64,000 nucleotides of DNA from Eucommia ulmoides (taxonomy: Eukaryota > Streptophyta > Magnoliopsida > Garryales > Eucommiaceae). Within the stretch, counting starts at the first letter, position 1; the number at the start of each line of letters is the position of its first letter. The stretch lies in the NCBI GenBank assembly GCA_016647705.1, contig CM028325.1, positions 25,567,566 through 25,631,565 on the forward strand, written 5' to 3'. This document shows, in pieces, positions 4,069 through 39,930 of this stretch. The notes below the pieces were generated by a model. It saw nothing but the letters and a program-made list of their open reading frames with translations. It did not search any database and was not told the origin of the DNA. A program made the position numbers and the translations under genes.

Positions 4069-4235
4069 AACTTTTAACACAATATAATACTCGACATAAT
4101 GTTGGGTGGGCTTGCGGTCGCAACACCACTTGCTCACCGGCTTTATATGACAAGAATACAACTTTATGTCCTTCTTATGTTTCACCTTTCCCTTTTCCAT
4201 TTTCGAGACCCCAACTTCATTTTTTCTCATCTCAT
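4069..4235 (-). pseudogene. Broken paralogue of the cysteine-rich peptide gene, exon 2 remnant
   Basis: The minus strand reads a peptide parallel to exon 2 at 35948-36129. Shared features are a Lys/Glu-rich stretch with SKMEKGK against AKMEKAK, and the motif KWCCDRKPT. Three things kill it. The AG acceptor of copy 2 is replaced by GATTGCCGG. The cysteines after WCC are lost (TSC became TQH, and QDC is gone). The reading frame runs into the MITE whose end is at 4068. The region that should hold exon 1 (near 6255) lacks about 115 bp present in copy 2. So this is a dead gene copy, assigned through its better-preserved paralogue. Confidence 0.75.
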
Positions 4236-5116
4236 TTCCGGCAATCATCCAATAAATTAAAAGATTATTTTTTAGGACGGTTTTGAATAAAATTAAGATT
4301 CACAAATCATATATTTAATTCTAGCTAAGATAGAAGCCATGCTTGAACTCACAAACTAAAAAAAGATGATGTTATATAATTTGAAAAGAAAAACAAATTT
4401 AATATTTAGATAATAAAACAAAAAATCAAATTTAATATTCCACATAGTATTGTATACAAAATATCTTTTTAGAATATAACTGGAATTCATATTCTCTTTT
4501 ATAAATATGTAATAAACTGTTTTACTACTCGTTAAAAAGAAAATTAATTAATTTTTATAAACTATTTTCAAATTATTGGAAAAACTTGTATAATAGTTAA
4601 GAAATTATTCTAATCAATTTAAAAAAAAAAAAAAAAAAAAAGGAAAGAAGATAAAAAAAAGAAAGATATAATCTACAATGAAAGAGGTATAATACATGAC
4701 GATCCGAAACTAATCAAGAAATTTTATTTCTAAATCACAGAACCACCAAATCTATAACAATTCTAAACTAATTAAAATCCAAATATTTAATCGAAAATCT
4801 TTAACCTAATTTAATGATTGGTAAATACAATATCAAAAATAACCATATTTTTAGGGGGGGGAAATTATTCAGAGTGTAATCCTTAATTATTTATGCTTCA
4901 TCAAGTATAAACTTAGTTTTGACATTTTATTTATATGATTTGATAGAATAAGAAAATGAAAATAAGTAGGTGAAAAGTCATTTTTTATTTAAAAATTAAT
5001 ATATAATATAAGATTGAATTATAAATTTTCAGAGGCCCAACTGAATATAAAAAATTTGTAACAGGTATTATTTAAAATAACAGGAACACTAACAACAAAA
5101 ATTAACTCACGCTATA

Positions 5117-5787
5117 TGTTGCTGATAAATTTAAATAAGAACGAAGTTATTAAATGTTTTTGGGTTGAGTCGCGGACTAGGTCGCTTTCTTTAAGACGTT
5201 TCGCGGTTTTGCTCAAAATTATGCAAGCAATATTGCAGCCTCATCGTTCTCAGGATAAAACATCCCAGAAATCTCCTCTATTTAGGAATTCCTTTGCAAG
5301 GTAGAAGGCCTAAAAACTAAACACCCTACAAAACACACTGCTCGGGAACGAAAGAAACGAAGAGTAATTTTGCAATTAAAAATAGAGAGGAAAAACTTCT
5401 TCAGGTTTTTAATGTTGAGACAAGTGGGAGGGAGGAAATCATGTGATGCTTGTCCAATGTGGAGTTAATAATATTTTATTTTATTAAAATAATCTAATTA
5501 AATTTTGTCCAAAAATTAAGCACCATCTCACTTCACACGTGCGCTCAGCTCGGTCAGCCAATAGCGACGGTGCGCGCGCGTGTGGTAAACCAATAGGGAT
5601 GTGGCTTCTCTCTCATCCACAAAATGTGAGTACCTCTTGAGACACAACCCAAGTATCTAACTCATTTTCAATTATACTCTTCTAGTGTCTTATTCCCAAG
5701 TAATGTGGGATAAACGAACAATAGAGAAAAAATTTGACACTTGGTTTTTTAAGTTTTTCACAAATAAAAATTCATTTTGCTCCAACA
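5117..5787. mobile_element. Solo LTR, 671 bp, TSD CTATA
   Basis: It begins TGTTGCTGATA and ends GCTCCAACA, the TGTTG/CAACA termini typical of many Copia-type LTRs. It is flanked by perfect 5-bp target duplications CTATA at 5112-5116 and 5788-5792. The paralogous position near 36888 is empty. It contains a GC-rich patch with CACACGTGCG and GCGCGCGCG (5536-5580). Orientation is not fixed because no primer site or purine tract adjoins a solo LTR. The family is not recognised. Confidence 0.85.
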
Positions 5788-6038
5788 CTATACAATAATA
5801 ATGAAAAATCTTCTTTTTCGGGGGGGAACTATATGTCCCTCGTGCCAATGCTCTTTCTCCCCCAGTTAGAAGGGTAAATTTGTCTTTTCATTTTCAACAT
5901 TAAAAAGTAAAAACTCAAAAGTGTAATTAGGGCAAACTTGGGAAGTTGTAAGTGTAATTATCATTTCTTGAAAAAAGAAAAAGGATAAGATACTCGATTC
6001 TACCATAAGAAAAGCAAATTAAGGTTCAAAATATAATT

Positions 6039-6145
6039 GAGATTCAATTGTGGGCTAGTGGTAAGGTCTACCTTTTCAAGCCAGAGATTTGGGGATTGAA
6101 TCTCACTAGGTGCGTGAGAGGGAAAAAGAGAGAAGGAAAAATTGT
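6039..6145 (+). mobile_element. tRNA-derived SINE, about 107 bp
   Basis: A box A-like TGTGGGCTAGTGGTAAGG (6050-6067) and a box B-like GGGATTGAATCTC about 27 bp later mark a tRNA-related RNA polymerase III promoter. The element is flanked by an imperfect 14-bp target duplication, TTCAAAATATAATT (6025-6038) and TTCAAAATATATTT (6146-6159). The paralogous locus near 37132 has the single unoccupied site. The tail is purine-rich rather than a clean poly(A). Confidence 0.8.
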
Positions 6146-6525
6146 TTCAAAATATATTTTAAAAGGGAAAAATGAATTTTTTCACAAAAACAAAGGTTCA
6201 AAATATAATTTTCCCAAATTGGAGGGGGCGAATAAGCCTATTAAGGAAGAGAGAGACTCGTGATTACAGTTTTATAATAGGTATGCCTTTTTTCAAATGT
6301 ATCAAGATTGTAAAAATCAAATAAAAGATTTTAAAAGATTATAAAAATACAAGATAGTATTCTTATTGTATATTGTTGTAATCAAATTCGAGATTCAGTT
6401 TGATTTGAAATTGTTTCCTTTCTCCAAAAGTGATTTTTTTCGGTTGGAACTTTATAAGCGATTCCTTTTAGATCAGTTAAAATCGATTTGATATTTTTAG
6501 TGTTGAGGATTACAATTAAAAGTAG

Positions 6526-7886: not shown

Positions 7887-8609
7887 TGATAGAGGGAAAT
7901 TTGGTCGATAAGCCACCTGTCCAAACCTAGACGTGCATGGAGGCTCCTTCATGATTAATTCAAGGTGCCAAGGTCTCAAGTGTAGGAAAAGGGCTGAGCT
8001 CTGGGTTTCAAGCACCCTTAGCTTGGCAACCTCAAAATATGGAGACATAAAACCGTTCAAAAGACCCTCTTGGCCGAGCTCTGGGTTCCGAGCACCCTCA
8101 GCTCGGCAACCTCAAAATATGGGACATAAAACCGTTCAGAAGGCACCCTTGGCCGAGCTCAAGACTCTAAGCACCCTCAGCTCGGAAACATTGAAATATA
8201 AAGGCCTAAACCATTCAAAAGGCCCCCTTAGTCGAGCTCCAGGCTCCGAGCACCCTCAGGTTGGCAACCTCAAAAGATGGAGGCCCTAAGATCGCCTGAG
8301 GCCCCAAAATCGCCCAAAAGACCACAGTGCCGAGCTGAGGGCTTTGACCACCTTCGGCTCGGCTGATCATCGAATGGGAGGCCCTAAAACCACCTAGAAA
8401 ACTACAGTACCGACTTGAGGGCCCCTAGCACCCTCACCTCGGTTGATCATCAAATAGGGGCCCAAGACCGACTAGAAGACCATTGTGTCGAGCTGAGGGA
8501 TCCGAGTACCCTCATCTTGGTTGATCATCCAATGGGAGACCCCAAAATCGCCCCCAAAAAGCCACCGCGCCGAGCTGAGGGCTCCGAGCACCCTTAGCCC
8601 GATTGATCA
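7887..8609 (+). mobile_element. Element X 5' LTR, left part
   Basis: This is the U3 side of the LTR, aligned to 25938-26760. It consists of a unique start and then tandem 79-bp units. It breaks off within a unit at GATTGATCA, where chromovirus Y begins. The remainder of this LTR, including the TATA region, is not found elsewhere and must have been deleted. Confidence 0.75.
7990..8609. repeat. Array of 79-bp hairpin-bearing LTR units (about 8)
   Basis: The units start near 7993, 8071, 8151, 8230, 8328, 8409, 8487 and 8569. Each contains a near-palindrome of the form GCCGAGCTGAGGG-loop-CCCTCAGCTCGGC. Two unit types follow each other. The first four carry a 'caacctcaaaatatgg' spacer, the rest a 'tgatcatc' spacer. 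Confidence 0.85.
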
Positions 8610-8877
8610 TGTAAGACCCTAATTTTTGCATGCGCATAATTATTAGCCGCATTTTAGCACATTTAGTAAATAATGAGATAGATTGTGTTAAATAATTTTT
8701 AAATTCAAATTTTAGGGGTTAATTCATAATTCTAAAACTATTAATTTTGATTTGGGTTTAAATAAAAATTTAAAGAATATTAAGGGGAGATATATAAAGA
8801 ATATAAAAATTTAAATAAAAATTTAAAAAATATAAAGAATATATATATATATATATATATAAGGAGATAAGATCAAA

Positions 8878-10984: not shown

Positions 10985-11165
10985 AGCTTATGTCCTGCCC
11001 GGAGGGTAGTCCGACAAGTGGTTATTTATATTATGTCCTGTCCGGAAGGTAGTCCGGCAGGTGGTTATTGATATTATGTCCTGTCCGGAGACGTCCGACA
11101 GGTGGTTATTGATATTATGTCCTGTACGGCATATTAGTTCGGCAGGTGGTTATTTGTCCCGTTTG
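10985..11165. repeat. LTR minisatellite, about 45-bp units (4 copies)
   Basis: Repeated core TCCGGAGGGTAGTCCGGCAG followed by a 'gtggttattgatattatgtc' spacer. Each core is a short inverted repeat around TCCGGA/TCCGGC. The corresponding 3' LTR array (about 17360-17570) has five copies. Confidence 0.85.
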
Positions 11166-13440: not shown

Positions 13441-13735
13441 AAATTGAGAAGACTAATAAAGGTGAGCGTCATTACCCGATGCATGAATTGGAGTTAGCGG
13501 CGATTGTGTTTGCCCTAAAGAATTGAAGGCACTACTTGTATGGCGAGACATGTGAAATATACATCGACCACCAGAGTTTAAAATACTGGATTACTCAAAA
13601 TGAATTAAAATTGGAGGCAAAGGTGTTGGATAGAGTTGATTAAAGATTACGATTGTACCATCCACTATCATCTAGGGAAGGCTAATGTTGTAGTGGATGC
13701 GTTGAATCAGAAATCGGCGAGTTCGATCGCACACA
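13441..13735 (+). pseudogene. Element Y RNase H, N-terminal part deleted
   Basis: Begins abruptly after the connection domain. Readable motifs are [27 protein letters not shown] and [22 protein letters not shown]. They match the second half of the Ty3-type RNase H with the downstream catalytic D position. In-frame stops interrupt it, for example TGA in place of Trp near 13527 and TAA near 13640. Confidence 0.75.
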
Positions 13736-14330
13736 TTCGAGTCATTCATACTAATCTGTATACCGAGTTGAGATCATTGCGAGTTCAATTAGCGGTTGGT
13801 CAGATGGCAGCATTGCTTGCGACTTTGACTTTGAGGCCAACATTGATTAACCGTATTATTGACGCGCAAAAGTCAGACATTCAATTGGAAAGGATTCAAG
13901 ATGAAGTGATAAATAGTCACAGAGTTGACTATCATGTCAAGGATAGTGATGAAACTTTGATGATGGGGAATAGGTTGTGTGTGTTTGACGATGCCAGTTT
14001 GAAGAAGGATATCTTGGAAGAAGCACATAGCTCAGCATGTGCGATGCATCCAGGCAGTACCAAAATACATCGAGATTTATGTGAACATTATTGATAGATC
14101 GGAATGAAGCGAGAAATTGCAGAGTTTGTTGCCAGGTGTCTTATTGGTCAGCAAGTAAAGATTGAACATCAATGTCCAAGTGGGTTGTTGCAACCTCACG
14201 ATGGATTTCATTTCGGGATTACTTCGTACTAAAAAGGGGGCATAATTCCATCTGGGTGATCGTTGATAGGCTTACCAAGTCCGCTAATTTTCTGATCGTG
14301 AAAATGACGTATTCTCTTGAAAATTATGCC
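13636..14330 (+). pseudogene. Element Y integrase N-terminal zinc-binding part
   Basis: A 152-codon open frame spans the RNase H/integrase linker and an HHCC zinc motif, with H..AHSSACAMHPGSTK and then LIGQQ-type sequence. A stop lies just after DLCEHY at 14095. The segment with the first catalytic Asp (VIVDRLTKS, near 14255-14285) is present but out of frame. Integrase would insert the cDNA; this copy is broken. Confidence 0.75.
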
Positions 14331-15999: not shown

Positions 16000-18301
16000 T
16001 GCCATTACTTCCATGTGTGTGTTTTTCGTTGGCCGTGTGTGGGTCTGTGCATCTATGTGTGTCCTGCTCAGCCGGTGTATATGGGTGACTGTGAATATGT
16101 GTGTGTTTCCTATTTTCGGTTGGTGCAGCTGTGGGTGTGTATGTGTTCCGATGGTCAGGTGGGTGTGTGGTGATGTGTTTTGTGTGTGTGTTCTTCGGTG
16201 TGTGTGGCTCCTCCGGAGGTGTGTGTATGTGTGTCGTAGTTGGTTTGCTGAAAGGAAATAGCATAGGAAGAGAGAGAAAGCGAAGAGAGAGAGAGAGAGA
16301 GAGAGAGAGGTCGGCGGTTCATCGCCGGTGGGTTACCGTGCTATGTTCATCGTGTGCATATGTGTGGGGTGTCGTGCGTGCTCTATTTTGTTTCATTCTG
16401 GGGTGTGTGTGTGTGTATGTGTGGTTATGTGCATGTGATCGGATCTATGTATGTGTGAGGTTCGTGGGTGTATTCGATCGAGGGTGTATGCGTGTGCGAT
16501 CGTCGCCATTTGTTCGGTGTTTGCATGTGCAAGCCGTCGTCAGCAGTGTACGTCGGTGTGGGTCGTCGGTCGATCGGCGTTTACTGTGGGAGTGGTTGCT
16601 AGTGTGAGCGTGGGTGTGTGGGTGTGAGGTCGCCGGTAGTCGGCAACGTTAAGAAGAGAGGGGGAGGGCCGGCTGGAATTCAAGCGGAGCAGAGAACAGG
16701 AAACAGAACGGAAAAAGGAAAAGAAAGAAGAAGGGGAAAAAGAAGAAACTAGACAAATAACCCCAACAAATTCAAAATCGGTCTCACGACCCGTGAACGA
16801 ATCGGAATGTGTAACGTTTTTCGTTAAGTTTATTTTAGTTTTGTTAAATTAAATTCTAGCATAAAAATTTTGTAACCGGAATAATAAATTTGGGACTTTT
16901 CGTATTACAAATTTTATGCAGTAATTTTTAACGAAAATGAACAATTAACCGAATAATAATTTTCATAAATAAAATTAGAGAATGGGAAAACACGGAACTT
17001 AGAGCCTGCATTGCATGATTTGGTTATTTTACATAAAATATTAATTTAGGACCTGTCATTATTAGGTTCGCAGACACCGGAGTATCGATAGAGACTAGTC
17101 AGTAAAAGTTGTTCGGAGCGGATAGTCAGGTGAGTGTACTATCTTCTAGTAAATTACAAAACCTATTTTCATATATATGATGGAAAAATGTGTTTGCTTA
17201 AAACTGGATGAATTTGTAACTTATATGGATCAAGCAGTTTTGGGTGTTTATGAAATTGTGGATTACGTTGGTTTTTACAAATAAGATAGAAAAATGATAT
17301 TTGGATTAAATCGGTTTTGGAGATAAAGGATGTTTTTATTGATTGGACTATGTCATAGCTTATGTCTTGCATGGAGGGGTAGTCCGGCAGGTGGTTATTG
17401 ATATTATGTCTTGTCCGGAGGGTAGTCCGGCAGGTGATTACTGATATTATGTCATGTCTGGAGGGTATTCCGGCAGGTGGTTATTGATATTATGTCTTGT
17501 CCGGAGACGTCCGACAGGTGGTTATTGATATTATGTCTTGTACGACAGATTAGTCCGACAGGTGGTTATTTGTCCCATTTAGGAGCAAACCCTGCAGGTA
17601 GTACAGTACCGTTGGAACTCCCAATCGTGAGGTTAAAACGATCACTTGGCTAGTCGGAAGGTGTGTGTGATGTTTGGTCGTACGTGGTGAACTAGTTGGA
17701 TAAATTTTATATATATTACTTTACATTGGATTGGTATACCTATTATTCTGGTTGCGTTACACTATATGGTTAGAGATAACATTATGGTGGATTTTCACTG
17801 TTTGGTTGGGTTGTTATGGATATATGCGTTATTTCTGTGGTGACTAGAAGACGAAGTTTTCCTGGTGGTATGTGATGTTTATATTACTGTTCGATATGTG
17901 ATATTTATATGTTTTATACTGGATCCGCACAGAAAAGGTTTTTATTATGAAGACAGTACACCGATAAAAATTTTGGTTTCGGGTGCAACTGTTAGGAGTC
18001 GGTCTCCTACTGGCACTAGGTAGATTCCTACGATGGTGTCTTGTGGGAGTTTGGGTGTAGGCTATCTAAGGTGAACCCGTGGGAGGTTCAGGAAAATTAT
18101 CATCATGTTGTTAACATATTTTGTTGTATAAAATTTCGGGGACGGATGTGTCCCAGTGTTTGCGTGGATTTGTAATATTTTTTGGTGTCTGTATATGTTA
18201 GTATATTTATTATCGTTTTCTAGTTGGTTGGATGTCCAGGTGATGTCATGTCGACGTTACGCCGACCCTAGGGTGACGAGTGTCTGGGGTGGGGTGTGAC
18301 A
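15286..18301 (+). mobile_element. Element Y 3' LTR
   Basis: 3016 bp, TGTAAGATCTC...GGTGTGACA. Collinear with the 5' LTR from 15634 to the end. It contains the GT-rich domain (15880-16640), a (GA)n run (16288-16309) and five units of the TCCGG minisatellite (about 17360-17570). Differences from the 5' LTR are scattered throughout, so the element is not young. Confidence 0.85.
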
Positions 18302-21042: not shown

Positions 21043-21842
21043 TTGCTAGGGACCATGCCGAAAAGAGTTGTTTCCAAAAGGGCCCGAGGCGAAGCATCAG
21101 AGCAGGCTCCTGACTTGGATGCCTCCCATTTTGTTTCGAAAGTAGTCGAGGAGTACTTCTATCGGCATGAGTTCAAAAGACCATGCATAAGGCAAAGGGG
21201 GTTTGGGGCTTTGGATGCCCTTCAAGAAGAATTCAAGAGCGTCATAAGGAGTGGTGGTTGCGAACAATTCTGCAGTTCACCCCCCAAGGACGAGGTGTTC
21301 GTGGTCCGAGAATTTTATGCTAATATCACTAAGACCGCTGACTACCGGAAGAGGGTCAAAAATCACCCAATCTTATTCATTCTGGAGCACTTCAACAAAA
21401 TTTTGGGTTCAAAGGAGCCAGAACCCTCGCACGATCCGTTTGGGAGTCACACGCCATCTATAGAGCCTGTGATCCGGGCCCTGACCAAGGGCAATGTTCA
21501 ATGGAGAAACACAAGGCCGAGTCAAGCGATATTTAAGGCGAGGTATCTGAAACCAGTTCCAAAAATCTGGTACCACTTCGTGTGTGGGAACCGCTTCCTA
21601 CATCTCATTATTCCGATGTCTCCAAGGAGAGGGCTTACGTTTTATATGACATCCAAAAGGGGAATCCAATAAATATCGGGTGGCATATTTATTCTTCGAT
21701 TCTTCATGCGGTTCAATTGATGAAGGCTGGCCTTCCATTTTCCTCATTTTTTACTGATCTATTCAGACGCGCTGGAGTCGTGATCAAAGGGGATAACCCT
21801 TGGCCCCCTAAACTTCTTCTCGATCAAGCAATGATTAACTGA
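21043..21842 (+). pseudogene. Athila-associated plant transposon-type protein, frameshifted
   Basis: Two overlapping frames make one protein-like region: 21043-21672 and, shifted, to 21842. The first starts with a basic segment (PKRVVSKRARG), then FVSKVVEEYFYRHEFKRPCI and VREFYANITK. The second continues with YDIQKGNPINIGWHIYSSI and DLFRRAGVVIKGDNPWPP. The layout (basic head, EFY.N block, then a helical 'I..GW' and 'LCRRAGV'-like block) resembles the putative plant transposon domain found in Athila/Tat-related elements, known mainly by sequence. The shift lies near 21640-21665, so the copy is broken. Confidence 0.55.
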
Positions 21843-25937: not shown

Positions 25938-26912
25938 ATAAAGGAAAATTTGGTCGATAAGCCACATGTCTAAAACCACACGTGCTTGGGGAACCTTCAT
26001 GATTAAATCATAGTGCCAAGGTTTCAAGTGTAGGAAAAAGGCTGAGCTCCAGGCTCTGAGCACCTTTAGCTCGGTAACCTCAAAATATGGGGGCCTAAAA
26101 CCATCCAGAGGCCGTCCTTGGCCAAGCTTCAGGATCCGAGCACCCTCATCTCAGCAACCTCAAAATATGGAGGCCTAAACCATCCAAAGGCCCTTCTTGG
26201 CCGAGCTTTGGGCTCCGAGTACCCTCAGCTCGGCAACCTCAAAATATAGAGGCCTAAAATCGTTCAGAAGGCCCCCTTAGCCGAGCTCTAGGCTCCAAGC
26301 ACCCTCAGCTCAGTAGCCTCATAATATGGAGGCCTAAAACCGTTTAAAAAGCCCCATTGGCTGAGCTCCAGGCTCCGAGCACCCTCAGCTCAACAACCTT
26401 AAAATATGGAGGCCTAAAACTATTCAGAAGGACCTCTTGGATGAGATCTAGGCTCCAAGCACCCTTAACTTAGCCACTTAAAAAGATGGAGGCTTAAAAC
26501 CACCCAAAAGACCATAGTGTCGAGCTGAGGGCTCTAGGCACCTTCGGCTAGGCTAATCATCGAATAGGAGGCACCAAAACCGCCCAGAAGACCACAGTGC
26601 CAAGCTGAGGGCTCCAAGTACCCTGATTTCGGCTAATCAGCAAATGGCGGCCTAAGATTGACCAAAAGACCACCCCGCCGAACTGAGGGCTCCGAGCACC
26701 CTCAGCCCAGCTAATCATCTAACGGGAGTCCCCAAGATTGGCCAGAAGGCTATTGTGCCGAGCTGAGGGCTCTGAGCACCCTCAGTCCATTTGATTATCA
26801 AATGGGAGATCCCAAAACTGACTAAAAGTCCACCACACCGAACTGAGGGCTCCTAACATGCTCTGCTCGGCTGATCATCAAGTGTGAAGCCCAAATCTGC
26901 CCAGACGACAAC
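25938..26912 (+). mobile_element. Element X 3' LTR, left part, with 79-bp hairpin array
   Basis: Collinear with 7887-8609 but longer. Eleven units lie about 79 bp apart (26042, 26120, 26200, 26279, 26359, 26439, 26518, 26598, 26677, 26757, 26838) and a twelfth is split by element B. The first six are of the 'caacctcaaaatatgg' type, the later ones of the 'tgatcatc' type, the same order as in the 5' LTR. Confidence 0.85.
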
Positions 26913-33839: not shown

Positions 33840-34492
33840 TCTATGTTATTTTCAACATAATTGGAATGAAAAATACAGTATGTTGAAAGAATGAAAATTG
33901 AATGATAACATATTGAATATAACATTGAGTTACATCTTGAATATTACATTGAATATAATGTTGTGTTACATGATGTAATATCCAAAACAACCTTAAAAGA
34001 TGGATAACATGTTGAATATAACATTGTGTTACATTCAACATGGAATTATTTTTGTTGATCATACTATGTCCATCTGTAGTGATTGTATGAATTTTAACAT
34101 CAGTTGTCTTGTTATGCAAATACAACGGGGTTACGTACGTGGTACGTATTGAGAGCAAGAGTACGATAAGAACAATTGTCCAACAAATAGTAGACAGATG
34201 GGTTGACATGTTGAATGGACATTTTGACATGATGTATGCCCTCCCTGGTCACCGAAAATGTACACCTACAGATCAAAACAATTATGAAGAAATGGTTATT
34301 CTCACTGGCCACAAAAAGGTTGATTTTCCTAAAATCAACGTGAGGAAGACGGACAATAAGAATAGGGGATTTAGTGGGGCATCGTCTTTCGCGATTGCGC
34401 CAGCTAAAACTGGATCAAATGGATACATTGATTATGAAGTGGACTACATAGGGAGATATGGTAGTACAAATATGGGATCAAAAGAACAATGA
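33840..34492 (+). pseudogene. MULE-like transposase N-terminal region
   Basis: The open frame 34109-34492 (127 codons) reads YNGVTYVVRIESKSTIRTI, then HFDMMYALPGH, NYEEMVILTGHKKVDFPKIN. This follows the order of the N-terminal region preceding the transposase in plant MULE proteins (basic beta segment, helix, 'Y.LPG', acidic 'DD...M' and a final 'P..'). A second, more decayed copy is at 48034-48480. Upstream 33890-34050 is a run of TGTTGAATATAACA motifs. No catalytic transposase part is present. The family call is tentative. Confidence 0.45.
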
Positions 34493-35947: not shown

Positions 35948-37319
35948 TCACACACACCCATTTTTATTGCAATATCTAAAACAATCTTGATACTCGTAAA
36001 AACAGCTGGTGGGCTTGCGGTCGCAACACCACTTGTCCTCCTCACTCGAATAATTACAAGAATGTTGTTCCACCTTTGCCTTTTCCATTTTGGCGATCCC
36101 AGCTTCATTTTTTCCCTTCTCATTTCTGCCTGTCATCCAATAAACGGAAGGCACAAGTTAATATATATATATATAATCAAGCATGGCATAAAATATAATC
36201 GAGTAGAACATAAAATAACAATACAATTTGATTATTTTAGAAGTTTTTTTTTTGGCGACACTTTCAAATAAAATCAAGATTTTATATAATTAATTTTAAT
36301 TCTAAGAATAAAATATATAAACAAAAAAATAAGACAATCATAAAATTATTCAAATAAATTTTTTAGAAGCGAAAGTAAAGAAACTTCTAAAGCAAATGTA
36401 TAATCAAAGAACTAAAATATGAAATCTTTAAGACATTAATAATTCTAAATTAATCAAAAAAATTATTTTCAAATAAGGAAATCCATAAGAATTCTAAACT
36501 AGCTAATATCCACAAATTTAATGGAAAATGTTAAAGGTAATTCAATGATTGTTCAATTCAATCATGTTCAATATAATTCCTAAAATAACTATATTTTTAA
36601 CAAGAATTATTGGGAGTGTCCTCCGTAATTATTTATGCTTCGTAGGTCATAAACTCATTTTTGACACTATAGTTATGTAATTTGATGGAATAGTAAAATA
36701 AAAATAAACTTACACCCTGAACTTTATATTTAAATAATTAGATGAAAAGTCATTTTCTAATCAATAAATTCATGCATAAGTTAAGAATGAATTATAAACT
36801 ACCGAAGGCGCAATTCACTATAAAAAATTATAACGAGAATTATTTAGTATGAACGGGAACACTAATAAAAATTAACTCACAACATAATATAGAGTAATAA
36901 TGAAAATTCTTCCTTTTTGATGGAGGCATATATCCCTCCTACCAATGCTCTTCCTCCGCCATCATGTGTGAGTTTGTGTCAATTAGAAGGGTAAATTTGT
37001 CTTTTCATTTTCAACGTTAAAAACTCAATGTGTAATTAGACCAAACTTGGGAAGCTGTAAATGTAATTATCATTTATTGAAAAAAAAAAAAAAAAAAAGG
37101 ATAAGATAGTTGATTCTACCATATTAAGGTTCAAAATATAATTTAAAAAAGAGAATAAATGAATGTTATTTACAAAAACAAAGGTTCAAAATATAATTTT
37201 GCCCAAATTGGTGGGGGACATAAGCCTATTAAGGAGGAGAGAGACTTACAATCGTGAATGTTAATAAGGGTGTAGAGAACAAGAAGAAAGATGGCTAATT
37301 GAAATGTTCTTGGCTTCAT
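35948..37319 (-). CDS. Secreted cysteine-rich peptide gene, two exons, 83 residues
   Basis: Exon 1 is 37250-37319 and exon 2 is 35948-36129. The intron (36130-37249, 1120 bp) starts GTAAGT and ends GACAG. Exon 1 encodes MKPRTFQLAIFLLVLYTLI and NIHD, a typical signal peptide with a 12-residue hydrophobic core. The last base T of exon 1 joins GC of exon 2 to make a Cys codon. Exon 2 adds a basic, Lys/Glu-rich linker and a compact Cys module with HSC, KWCCDRKP, TSC, QDC, RYC and NGCV before TGA. Spacing is C-x23-C-x9-CC-x6-C-x6-C-x3-C-x4-C, eight in all. A signal-peptide exon followed by a Cys-module exon is the standard architecture of plant secreted cysteine-rich peptides. The WCC...C......C...C pattern recalls the MEG/ESF1/PCP-B type, but that family call is a guess. 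AATAAA lies 27 nt after the stop. No frame defects seen. Confidence 0.8.
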
Positions 37320-37409
37320 TATAGCCATAGATGTTTGCCAAGAGAATGGGTTGTTTTGGAAAAATAAATAAGAGCTGGGATATTGTGGTTTTATGGTAGG
37401 TATACCTTT

Positions 37410-38443: not shown

Positions 38444-38715
38444 GGGGCATGCACCATTTAGTCCTAAAATACAAATGAAATTACCAATTATTCCCATCAC
38501 TTTTTTTTGGCACTAATAAGTCCTTTTATCTTTTTATGACCAAAATATCCCTCACATGGATGTTGAATGTAACATCAAAATCATTAATTTTTTATTTTTT
38601 TTGTTTTTTTTTTTGTTTTTTTTTTATGCTATTTTTTTCTAACCAAAATACCCTTCATGTGGATGTTGAATGTAACATTCAGTATTGAATGTAACATCAA
38701 TTGTTTGTTTGTTTT

Positions 38716-38749
<34 letters not shown>

Positions 38750-39930
38750 GTTATTTTTTTCTGACCAAAATGCCCTCATGTGGATGTTGAATGTAACATT
38801 TAACACCTGTGAGTGTTGAATGTAACATCAACTGTGTTTTTTTTTTTTTTTTTTTTTTTTTTTAATGTTATTTTTTTTATGACTAAAATGCCCCTCATGT
38901 GGATGTTGAATGTAACATTCAACACCTGTGGATGTTAAATGTAACATCAACTGTGTTTTTTTTTTTTAATGTTATTTTTTTCTGACCAAAATGCCCCTCA
39001 TGTGGATGTTGAATGTCCCTCATGTGGATGTTGAATGTAACATTCAACACCTGTGGATGTTGAATGTAACATTAACTGTGTTTTTTTTTTTTTTTAATAT
39101 TACTTTTTTTTACCAAAATACCCCTCATGTGGATGTTGAAGGTCCCTCATGTGGATGTTGAATGTAACATTCAACACCTGTGGATGTTGAATGTAACATT
39201 AACTGTGTTTTTTTTTTTTTTTTAATATTACTTTTTTTTTACCAAAATACCCCTCATGTGGATGTTGAAGGTCCCTCATGTGGATGTTGAATGTAACATT
39301 CAACACCTGTGGATGTTGAATATAACATCAACTGTTTTTTTTTTTTAATGTTATTTTTTTCTAACCAAAATACCCCTCATGTGGATGTTGAATATAATAT
39401 TCAACTTCTGTGGATGTTGAATGTAACATCCATTATTCTCTTATTTTTGTATGCAGAGTAAAATACATATGATATTACATTGAACACCTGTAAATGTTGA
39501 ATATAACATCAATTGTTCTCTTATTTTACATTACGTTTAGTAACAATTTTATCCTAAAATTAAGTTTTTTTTTTTTTGTTTTTTTGGAACATATAAAAGT
39601 GATAAAAGGTGATAAAATTTGGGGTAAAGCTGTAATTTATAGCGGCGGCGACCGGCGACCGGCGACCGGCAGCGGCGGCGGCAGGCGGCTGACAGTGGTA
39701 GTACACCAATTTGACGACCTTCCTTCTCGATGTGAAACTCATGGGAGGGCATTTCGGTAAACTCAATCCTCACAATTTTTTAAGATGGGATTAATTGGTG
39801 TAAGGAAAGGTATTGATGGGACTAATTGGTGCAAGAAAAACGTGTTGACGGGACTAATCGGTGCAAAGAAAAACCGATGGAAGTTGGTGGTAAATAATTT
39901 CTTTTTTTGGGATTAATAGGTAATTTTCCC
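38444..39930. mobile_element. MULE-type non-autonomous element with perfect 9-bp TSD
   Basis: TAAAATATA occurs at 38435-38443 and 39931-39939. Terminal inverted repeats are imperfect: GGGGCATGCACCATTTAGTCC on the left and GGGAAAATTACCTATTAATCCC on the reverse of the right end. Each continues into further 'ATTAGTCCC'-type repeats (39780-39860). A 9-bp duplication fits Mutator-like elements. The interior is a minisatellite and a GC-rich patch (39640-39720, GGCGACC repeats). No transposase. Confidence 0.8.
38545..39440. repeat. Minisatellite with palindromic GTTGAATGTAACATTCAAC core
   Basis: About eight units of 80-130 bp. Each combines CCAAAATRCCCCTCATGTGG, a palindrome-containing ATGTTGAATGTAACATTCAA, CACCTGTGGATGTTGAATG and a T run of variable length. 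Unit-length changes come from the T run and from an internal duplication of the 'ccctcatgtggatgttgaa' segment in the right-hand units. Confidence 0.85.

Follow-up and report, generated by a model that had tools for sequence, protein, structure and literature searches.

A two-exon gene that is easily overlooked lies within repeat-rich DNA of Eucommia ulmoides and encodes a probably secreted, cysteine-rich peptide. The gene, which we refer to as A, is one member of a local cluster of copies. The window, i.e., the whole stretch of 64,000 nucleotides that was analysed (C1:25567566-25631565 of the genome; 35.18% GC), had been described in a first-pass annotation as harbouring a hidden gene of this kind, and the gene model was confirmed. 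Genome-wide searches with A, B, and D as queries (946.67 Mb, 391 contigs), together with a local scan of 244 kb, revealed four loci within about 90 kb on C1, where A, B, and D are intact and C is a pseudogene (Table 1). Judged by their sequences, A, B, and D make up a small local family that changes fast and is akin to peptides known from the seeds and pollen of plants. Our best reading of A is a divergent gene for a secreted peptide of the MEG/ESF1/PCP-B type, probably functional, and we consider it likely that the three copies together encode a local, rapidly evolving set of cysteine-rich secreted peptides that descends from the MEG/ESF1/PCP-B type and serves cell-cell signalling in reproduction.

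Table 1. Positions of the C1 cluster and of the ESF1-like loci on C14 (plain numbers are window positions).
Feature	Position	Strand	Remarks
Gene A, exon 1	37250..37328	-	putative signal peptide MAIMKPRTFQLAIFLLVLYTLINIHD plus first base of Cys codon
Gene A, intron	36130..37249	-	phase 1, GTAAGT...ACAG, 1120 bp
Gene A, exon 2	35948..36129	-	mature peptide; core C-x8-W-CC-x6-C-x6-C-x3-C, A-specific last Cys, TGA stop
Gene A, two AATAAA polyadenylation-type signals	35946-35941 and 35921-35916	-	by eye
Gene A, TATA-like element CATAAAA	37389..37395	-	by eye from alignments; TATAAAA in copies B and D
Old dispersed repeat in gene A intron	36206..36961		67-80% identical to other genomic sites
Copy B	C1:25561693-25561057	-	intact, 361-bp intron (exon ends C1:25561615/25561253)
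Copy D	C1:25514751-25515184	+	intact, 161-bp GC-AG intron (exon ends C1:25514829/25514991)
Pseudogene copy C	about 4078-6524	-	part of the four-locus C1 cluster
Copy C, exon-2 remnant	4078..4256	-	acceptor CAG changed to TTG; last three core Cys absent; no stop within matched stretch
Copy C, promoter remnant	6259..6524	-	abuts intron sequence; lacks exon 1
Solo-LTR-like insertion in copy C intron	5117..5787	-	671 bp; TG...CA ends, TATAG on both sides
ESF1-like loci L007, L011, L012	C14:47640825, 47706076, 47725215	+	family search of genome
ESF1-like locus L009	C14:48841628	-	family search of genome

The two-exon model of gene A was borne out on the minus strand, with the exon coordinates as proposed: the spliced exons read as one clean frame down to TGA with eight cysteines, and the intron, claimed to run from GTAAGT to AG over 1120 bp, was found exactly so. 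The AATAAA that had been placed 27 nt after the stop indeed begins at the 27th base past TGA, and a second one begins at the 2nd base (both by eye). Only the start had to be moved: the in-frame ATG at 37319 exists as described, but a conserved ATG sits nine bases upstream, and the former was dropped as the start of the gene. Because the in-frame ATG at 37328 (MAIMK...) is common to all three intact copies, the likelier product of gene A is a peptide of 86 amino acids (MAIMKPRTF...) with the layout MAIMKPRTFQLAIFLLVLYTLINIHD-C-RNEKGKNEAGIAKMEKAKVEQHSCNYSSEEDKWCCDRKPTSCFYEYQDCFRYCNKNGCV.

The surroundings of the gene are rich in repeats. Among the 50 matches listed in the search that brought out the repeat inside its intron, 42 lie outside the C1 cluster, and all of these 42 fall within window 36206-36961 (40 of the 109 candidates were scored; query positions 740-1495 correspond to window 36961-36206). 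About 1.2 kb upstream of the gene, a tandem array (38562-39392) is built on recurring GTTGAATGTAACAT, with similar text, aacattgtgttacattcaacat, near 34010-34045; two other pairs of arrays, alike within each pair, occur at 8011-8610 and 26040-26903 (units of about 80 bp) and at 10988-11154 and 17360-17570 (units of about 43 bp). Transposon open reading frames lie at 21043-21672, where Pfam Transposase_32 scores 44.7 bits against a cut-off of 45, and at 13636-14094, where a fragment of an integrase zinc-binding domain scores 22.5 bits (cut-off 25.5).

The relationship among the copies emerged through B. Whole-genome searches with A or D alone left their second exons unpaired, and B links the two, matching exon 2 of A at an E value of 5e-9 and exon 2 of D at 0.001 in the local scan. 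The intron position, the phase, and the junction cysteine of A recur in both B and D. The intron of D is of the GC-AG type (T|GCAAGT, C1:25514830), and those of A and B are GT-AG. Intron sequence is common to A and C, and B lacks it. After subtraction of the 756-bp repeat, the intron of A measures 364 bp versus 361 bp in B, a near-equality that is suggestive only, because the A and B introns align poorly (57%).

Divergence between A and B is concentrated in exon 2. With gap columns left out, the Jukes-Cantor distance of exon 2 amounts to 0.311, which is 3-5 times more than in exon 1 (0.094), the 5' flank (0.088 over 120 sites), and the 3' flank (0.067 over 47 sites). In exon 1 and the flanks together, 20 of 246 sites differ, compared with 44 of 173 in exon 2 (p = 1.8e-6). 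The six core cysteines of exon 2 are nevertheless unchanged in every pair, while the other columns changed in 30 of 50 cases for A/B (p = 0.007), 44 of 49 for A/D (p = 1.6e-5), and 43 of 55 for B/D (p = 3e-4). Unchanged core cysteines in a fast exon 2 speak for what is presumably a kept scaffold with a fast-changing surface. Point estimates of dN/dS in exon 2 are 1.2 (A/B), 0.46 (A/D), and 0.79 (B/D), and those in exon 1 are 0.65, 0.15, and 0.26 for the same pairs. Synonymous sites of exon 2, too, differ more often between A and B (6 of 29) than flank sites do (13 of 167; rounded counts, p = 0.04). Part of the A/B contrast could therefore be due to an exon 2 that is older or escaped conversion, and gene conversion affecting the 5' part is conceivable.

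We simulated neutral decay from exon 2 of A, using our own substitution and indel settings and counting a run as surviving when the open frame, the core motif, and the junction cysteine were all retained; the longer distances follow the clock of exon 2 itself and the shortest that of the flanks. At 0.31, the A/B distance of exon 2, 4 and 5 out of 20,000 runs survived, and at 0.6 and 0.94 none of 20,000 did. Survivors numbered 55 at a distance of 0.2 and 176 at 0.155, rising to 1,068 at 0.088 and 4,479 at 0.044 (20,000 runs each), and the test is weak at such flank-implied distances.

These numbers bear on an alternative that we consider unlikely, namely that A is a recently silenced pseudogene that carries no visible lesions yet, with only B and/or D at work. 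On the flank clock (about 0.044 per branch), neutral evolution would frequently leave exon 2 undamaged, as the last of these counts illustrates, and the A/B dN/dS of about 1.2 in exon 2 points the same way, as do the plainly dead copy C, which shares the intron of A, the old repeat inside that intron, and a TATA-like box that reads CATAAAA rather than TATAAAA. Against silencing, the splice sites, the frame, and the polyadenylation signals of A are intact, and all six of its core cysteine columns match those of B even though 30 of the 50 other columns have changed.

The cysteines themselves follow a pattern different from the one first supposed. In B and D, the core reads C-x10-W-CC in place of the C-x8-W-CC of A, and the rest is identical; the cysteine at the exon junction is common to all three. 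The C-terminal eighth cysteine of A is absent in B and D, which carry seven. As for the proposed conservation of the splice phase and the eight cysteines among relatives, the phase and seven of the cysteines recur in the paralogues, but the eighth does not.

A useful reference was provided by four ESF1-like loci within one 1.2-Mb region of C14, found in the family search of the genome, from which the C14 rows and L008, L010, L019, and L023 were translated. Exon 2 of the C14 loci has the full canonical set of eight cysteines; two of these loci read CPQRKCGKQKCYCCVTLPPVHCWFVVEDCYSRC, and the other two differ at one or two positions. The one C14 peptide that was tested, the only one, scored 19.8 bits with ESF1 (cut-off 24.1), and a PDB search with a C14 peptide returned maize MEG14 (7dab) at an E value of 0.25. 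Three loci (L009, L011, and L012) have a two-exon plan with the intron after the signal peptide and, if the acceptor chosen by eye is right, a cysteine as the junction codon; exon 1 of L007 was not found by the scan. A, B, and D resemble these three loci in having the intron after the signal peptide and a cysteine junction codon, and their core, CC-x6-C-x6-C-x3-C, is like the CC-x7-C-x6-C-x3-C of C14. They differ in that the C14 genes have eight canonical cysteines including CYCC, whereas the C1 copies have no CXCC. Moreover, the C14 exon-2 peptides are 91-95% identical to one another, whereas the C1 copies are divergent.

Two canonical cysteines are wanting in the core of A, B, and D, which has a single core cysteine ahead of CC. 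Compared by eye, C-KQRK-V-DNHV-Y-W-CC of D stands against C-PQRK-C-GKQK-C-Y-CC of the C14 genes, with the second and third canonical cysteines replaced. In view of these replacements, and of the junction cysteine in the C14 genes, the total of eight cysteines in A is coincidental: the junction cysteine and the C-terminal one bring its six core cysteines up to that number. Equating them with the eight of MEG/ESF1/PCP-B, and thus with the PCP-B pattern, was rejected on the A/B/D alignment and the C14 comparison: two of the canonical eight are missing in A, and one of its own is specific to it. The junction cysteine, for its part, seems to be an ancient trait that does not belong to the canonical set.

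Nevertheless, MEG/ESF1/PCP-B proved to be the right family to test. Copy D passes the Pfam Meg model (PF24153) with 27.8 bits against a cut-off of 27 (E 3e-6), copy B matches the same model below the cut-off (18.2-18.6 bits), and peptide A matched no Pfam family at E values up to 10. The mature part of D on its own still matches Meg (20.4 bits, E 6e-4, under the cut-off), whereas its signal peptide alone gave no Pfam match, and so the Meg match of D does not stem from the signal peptide alone; the signal peptide joined to a shuffled mature part gave no Meg match, nor did the mature part of B alone. ESF1 (PF18209) was not matched by A, B, or D at E values up to 10. A comparison of profiles built from the A/B/D mature parts and from the C14 set, with few sequences on each side, gave an E value of 1.2e-4 and a probability of 55%. 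Since A joins the family via B, D, and the gene plan rather than through a profile match of its own, and since CXCC is wanting, we regard it as a divergent offshoot, not a canonical member.

Broader searches added little. Searching the genome with the Pfam models yielded no row over the cut-off (0 of 17 for ESF1, 0 of 5 for Meg), and none of these rows was an exon of A, B, or D. A protein collection of unconfirmed plant content, searched with A alone and with the A/B/D alignment, returned nothing at E values up to 10, and NCBIfam, a bacterial and archaeal library, gave nothing. Among PDB sequences, no chain matched A, and D obtained two weak, unrelated-looking matches (E 0.85 and 1.1). A single-sequence fold prediction for exon 2 of A alone contained helices only and was too weak to use (pLDDT 60.7, pTM 0.34). 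Elsewhere in the genome, the best row of the Meg search (L019, C2:8627549-8627749) scored 22.3 bits, under the cut-off, and carries five internal stops; upstream, its translation resembles a signal peptide. Two loci on C7 (47932492 and 48004651), 72 kb apart, match at 100% and 95% the antifungal peptide EAFP2, for which we used what we take to be its 41-residue Eucommia ulmoides sequence.

Comparison with the named families shows both likenesses and differences. According to passages of PMC4236715, the coding region of maize Meg genes is split into two exons, and the genes lie clustered in one place amid transposons; in our gene models, A, B, and D likewise have two coding exons and one intron, in a cluster with damaged copies and transposons. 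The same passages mention two maize Meg genes without exon 1, which are in this respect like pseudogene C, and report possible positive selection in maize Meg genes. The A/B/D spacing CC-x6-C-x6-C-x3-C fits the part CCX{4,10}CX{6,12}CX{3}C of the MEG motif, CX{4,9}CX{4,12}CXCCX{4,10}CX{6,12}CX{3}C, as given in excerpts of PMC8198727. By contrast, CXCC is a feature of the Meg/Ae1 supergroup (excerpts of PMC4236715 and PMC8198727), and in A its first cysteine is replaced by W, which precedes CC in B and D too; one further upstream core cysteine is missing, and the Pfam model does not recognise A. Like the ESF1/PCP-B peptides of Arabidopsis and Brassica, the products are small and probably secreted. 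Mature PCP-B-like peptides hold seven or eight cysteines (passages of PMC5215366), whereas A, B, and D have six core cysteines in exon 2, and A one more at the end. The fold of the family is a cysteine-stabilised helix with a three-stranded sheet. The passages of PMC5215366 describe a loop with a conserved Tyr/Trp, namely Tyr-45 after Cys-44 in PCP-B-gamma and Trp-48 in ESF1.3. An aromatic residue also stands right after the cysteine of CC-x6-C in A (Phe), in B and D (Tyr), and in the C14 genes (Trp), and that of A, B, and D, matched by numbering rather than by alignment to PCP-B, would correspond to the Tyr/Trp of PCP-B/ESF1.

A second alternative, which we judge improbable, is that A, B, and D are defence (antimicrobial) cysteine-rich peptides rather than a reproductive signal. 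Local clusters with fast-changing mature parts are typical of defence peptides as well. In addition, two tomato MEG-like genes fall in expression upon infection or elicitor treatment (excerpts of PMC8198727). However, A, B, and D matched no defensin, thionin, or other defence family in Pfam at E values up to 10, so that the defensin-like families that had also been suggested found no backing, and the sole family matched, by B and D, is Meg. As to a chance pairing of splice-like sites with an open reading frame in AT-rich repeats, which the short exons, the repeat-rich surroundings, and the want of any family or database match for A alone might suggest, we rejected it as almost certainly wrong once paralogues were found, because B and D, both intact, agree with A in exon/intron structure, phase, and cysteine spacing, D passes Pfam Meg, and none of 20,000 neutral runs kept the pattern at the A/D distance.

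In the reading that we prefer, that of a signalling family of MEG/ESF1/PCP-B descent, the putative signal peptide of exon 1 would send the products of A, B, and D, where expressed, to the apoplast. The intron would split a codon at the end of the signal peptide, and exon 2 would supply a variable N-terminal stretch followed by the six-cysteine core, in which the six cysteines may form three disulphides that hold a small receptor-binding domain. The aromatic residue after CC-x6-C would lie within a loop, in the place of the Tyr/Trp of PCP-B/ESF1.3 (by analogy with passages of PMC5215366), and the copies would diversify in the mature part. The likeliest role is cell-cell signalling in reproduction, between pollen and stigma or in the seed; we favour this guess because it is there that the closest families with a name are active (passages of PMC5215366 and PMC4236715). 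Meg1 is expressed in endosperm transfer cells.

More doubtful, though worth stating, is a joint reading in which a peptide of the ESF1/MEG type lost two canonical cysteines, possibly one disulphide, in the Eucommia lineage and was remodelled into a signal with a six-cysteine core; selection on the mature domain would be driving A, B, and D apart, and A would be acquiring a new cysteine at its C-terminus. If true, this would be in keeping with a recognition signal peculiar to the lineage, exchanged by pollen and pistil or by tissues of the seed.

No report of these genes was seen among the papers listed in a search of open-access literature on Eucommia ulmoides and the two families; the Eucommia passages in the part of PMC8198727 consulted concern hevein-like peptides. 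A, B, and D are no new kind of system. Gene A is a concrete case of a short split-exon gene that annotation may miss, and the three intact copies allow a test of how far a cysteine scaffold changes while the gene plan stays. Read as above, gene A adds a Eucommia offshoot to a family whose known members take part in the hydration of pollen, the patterning of the early embryo, and nutrient transfer in the seed.
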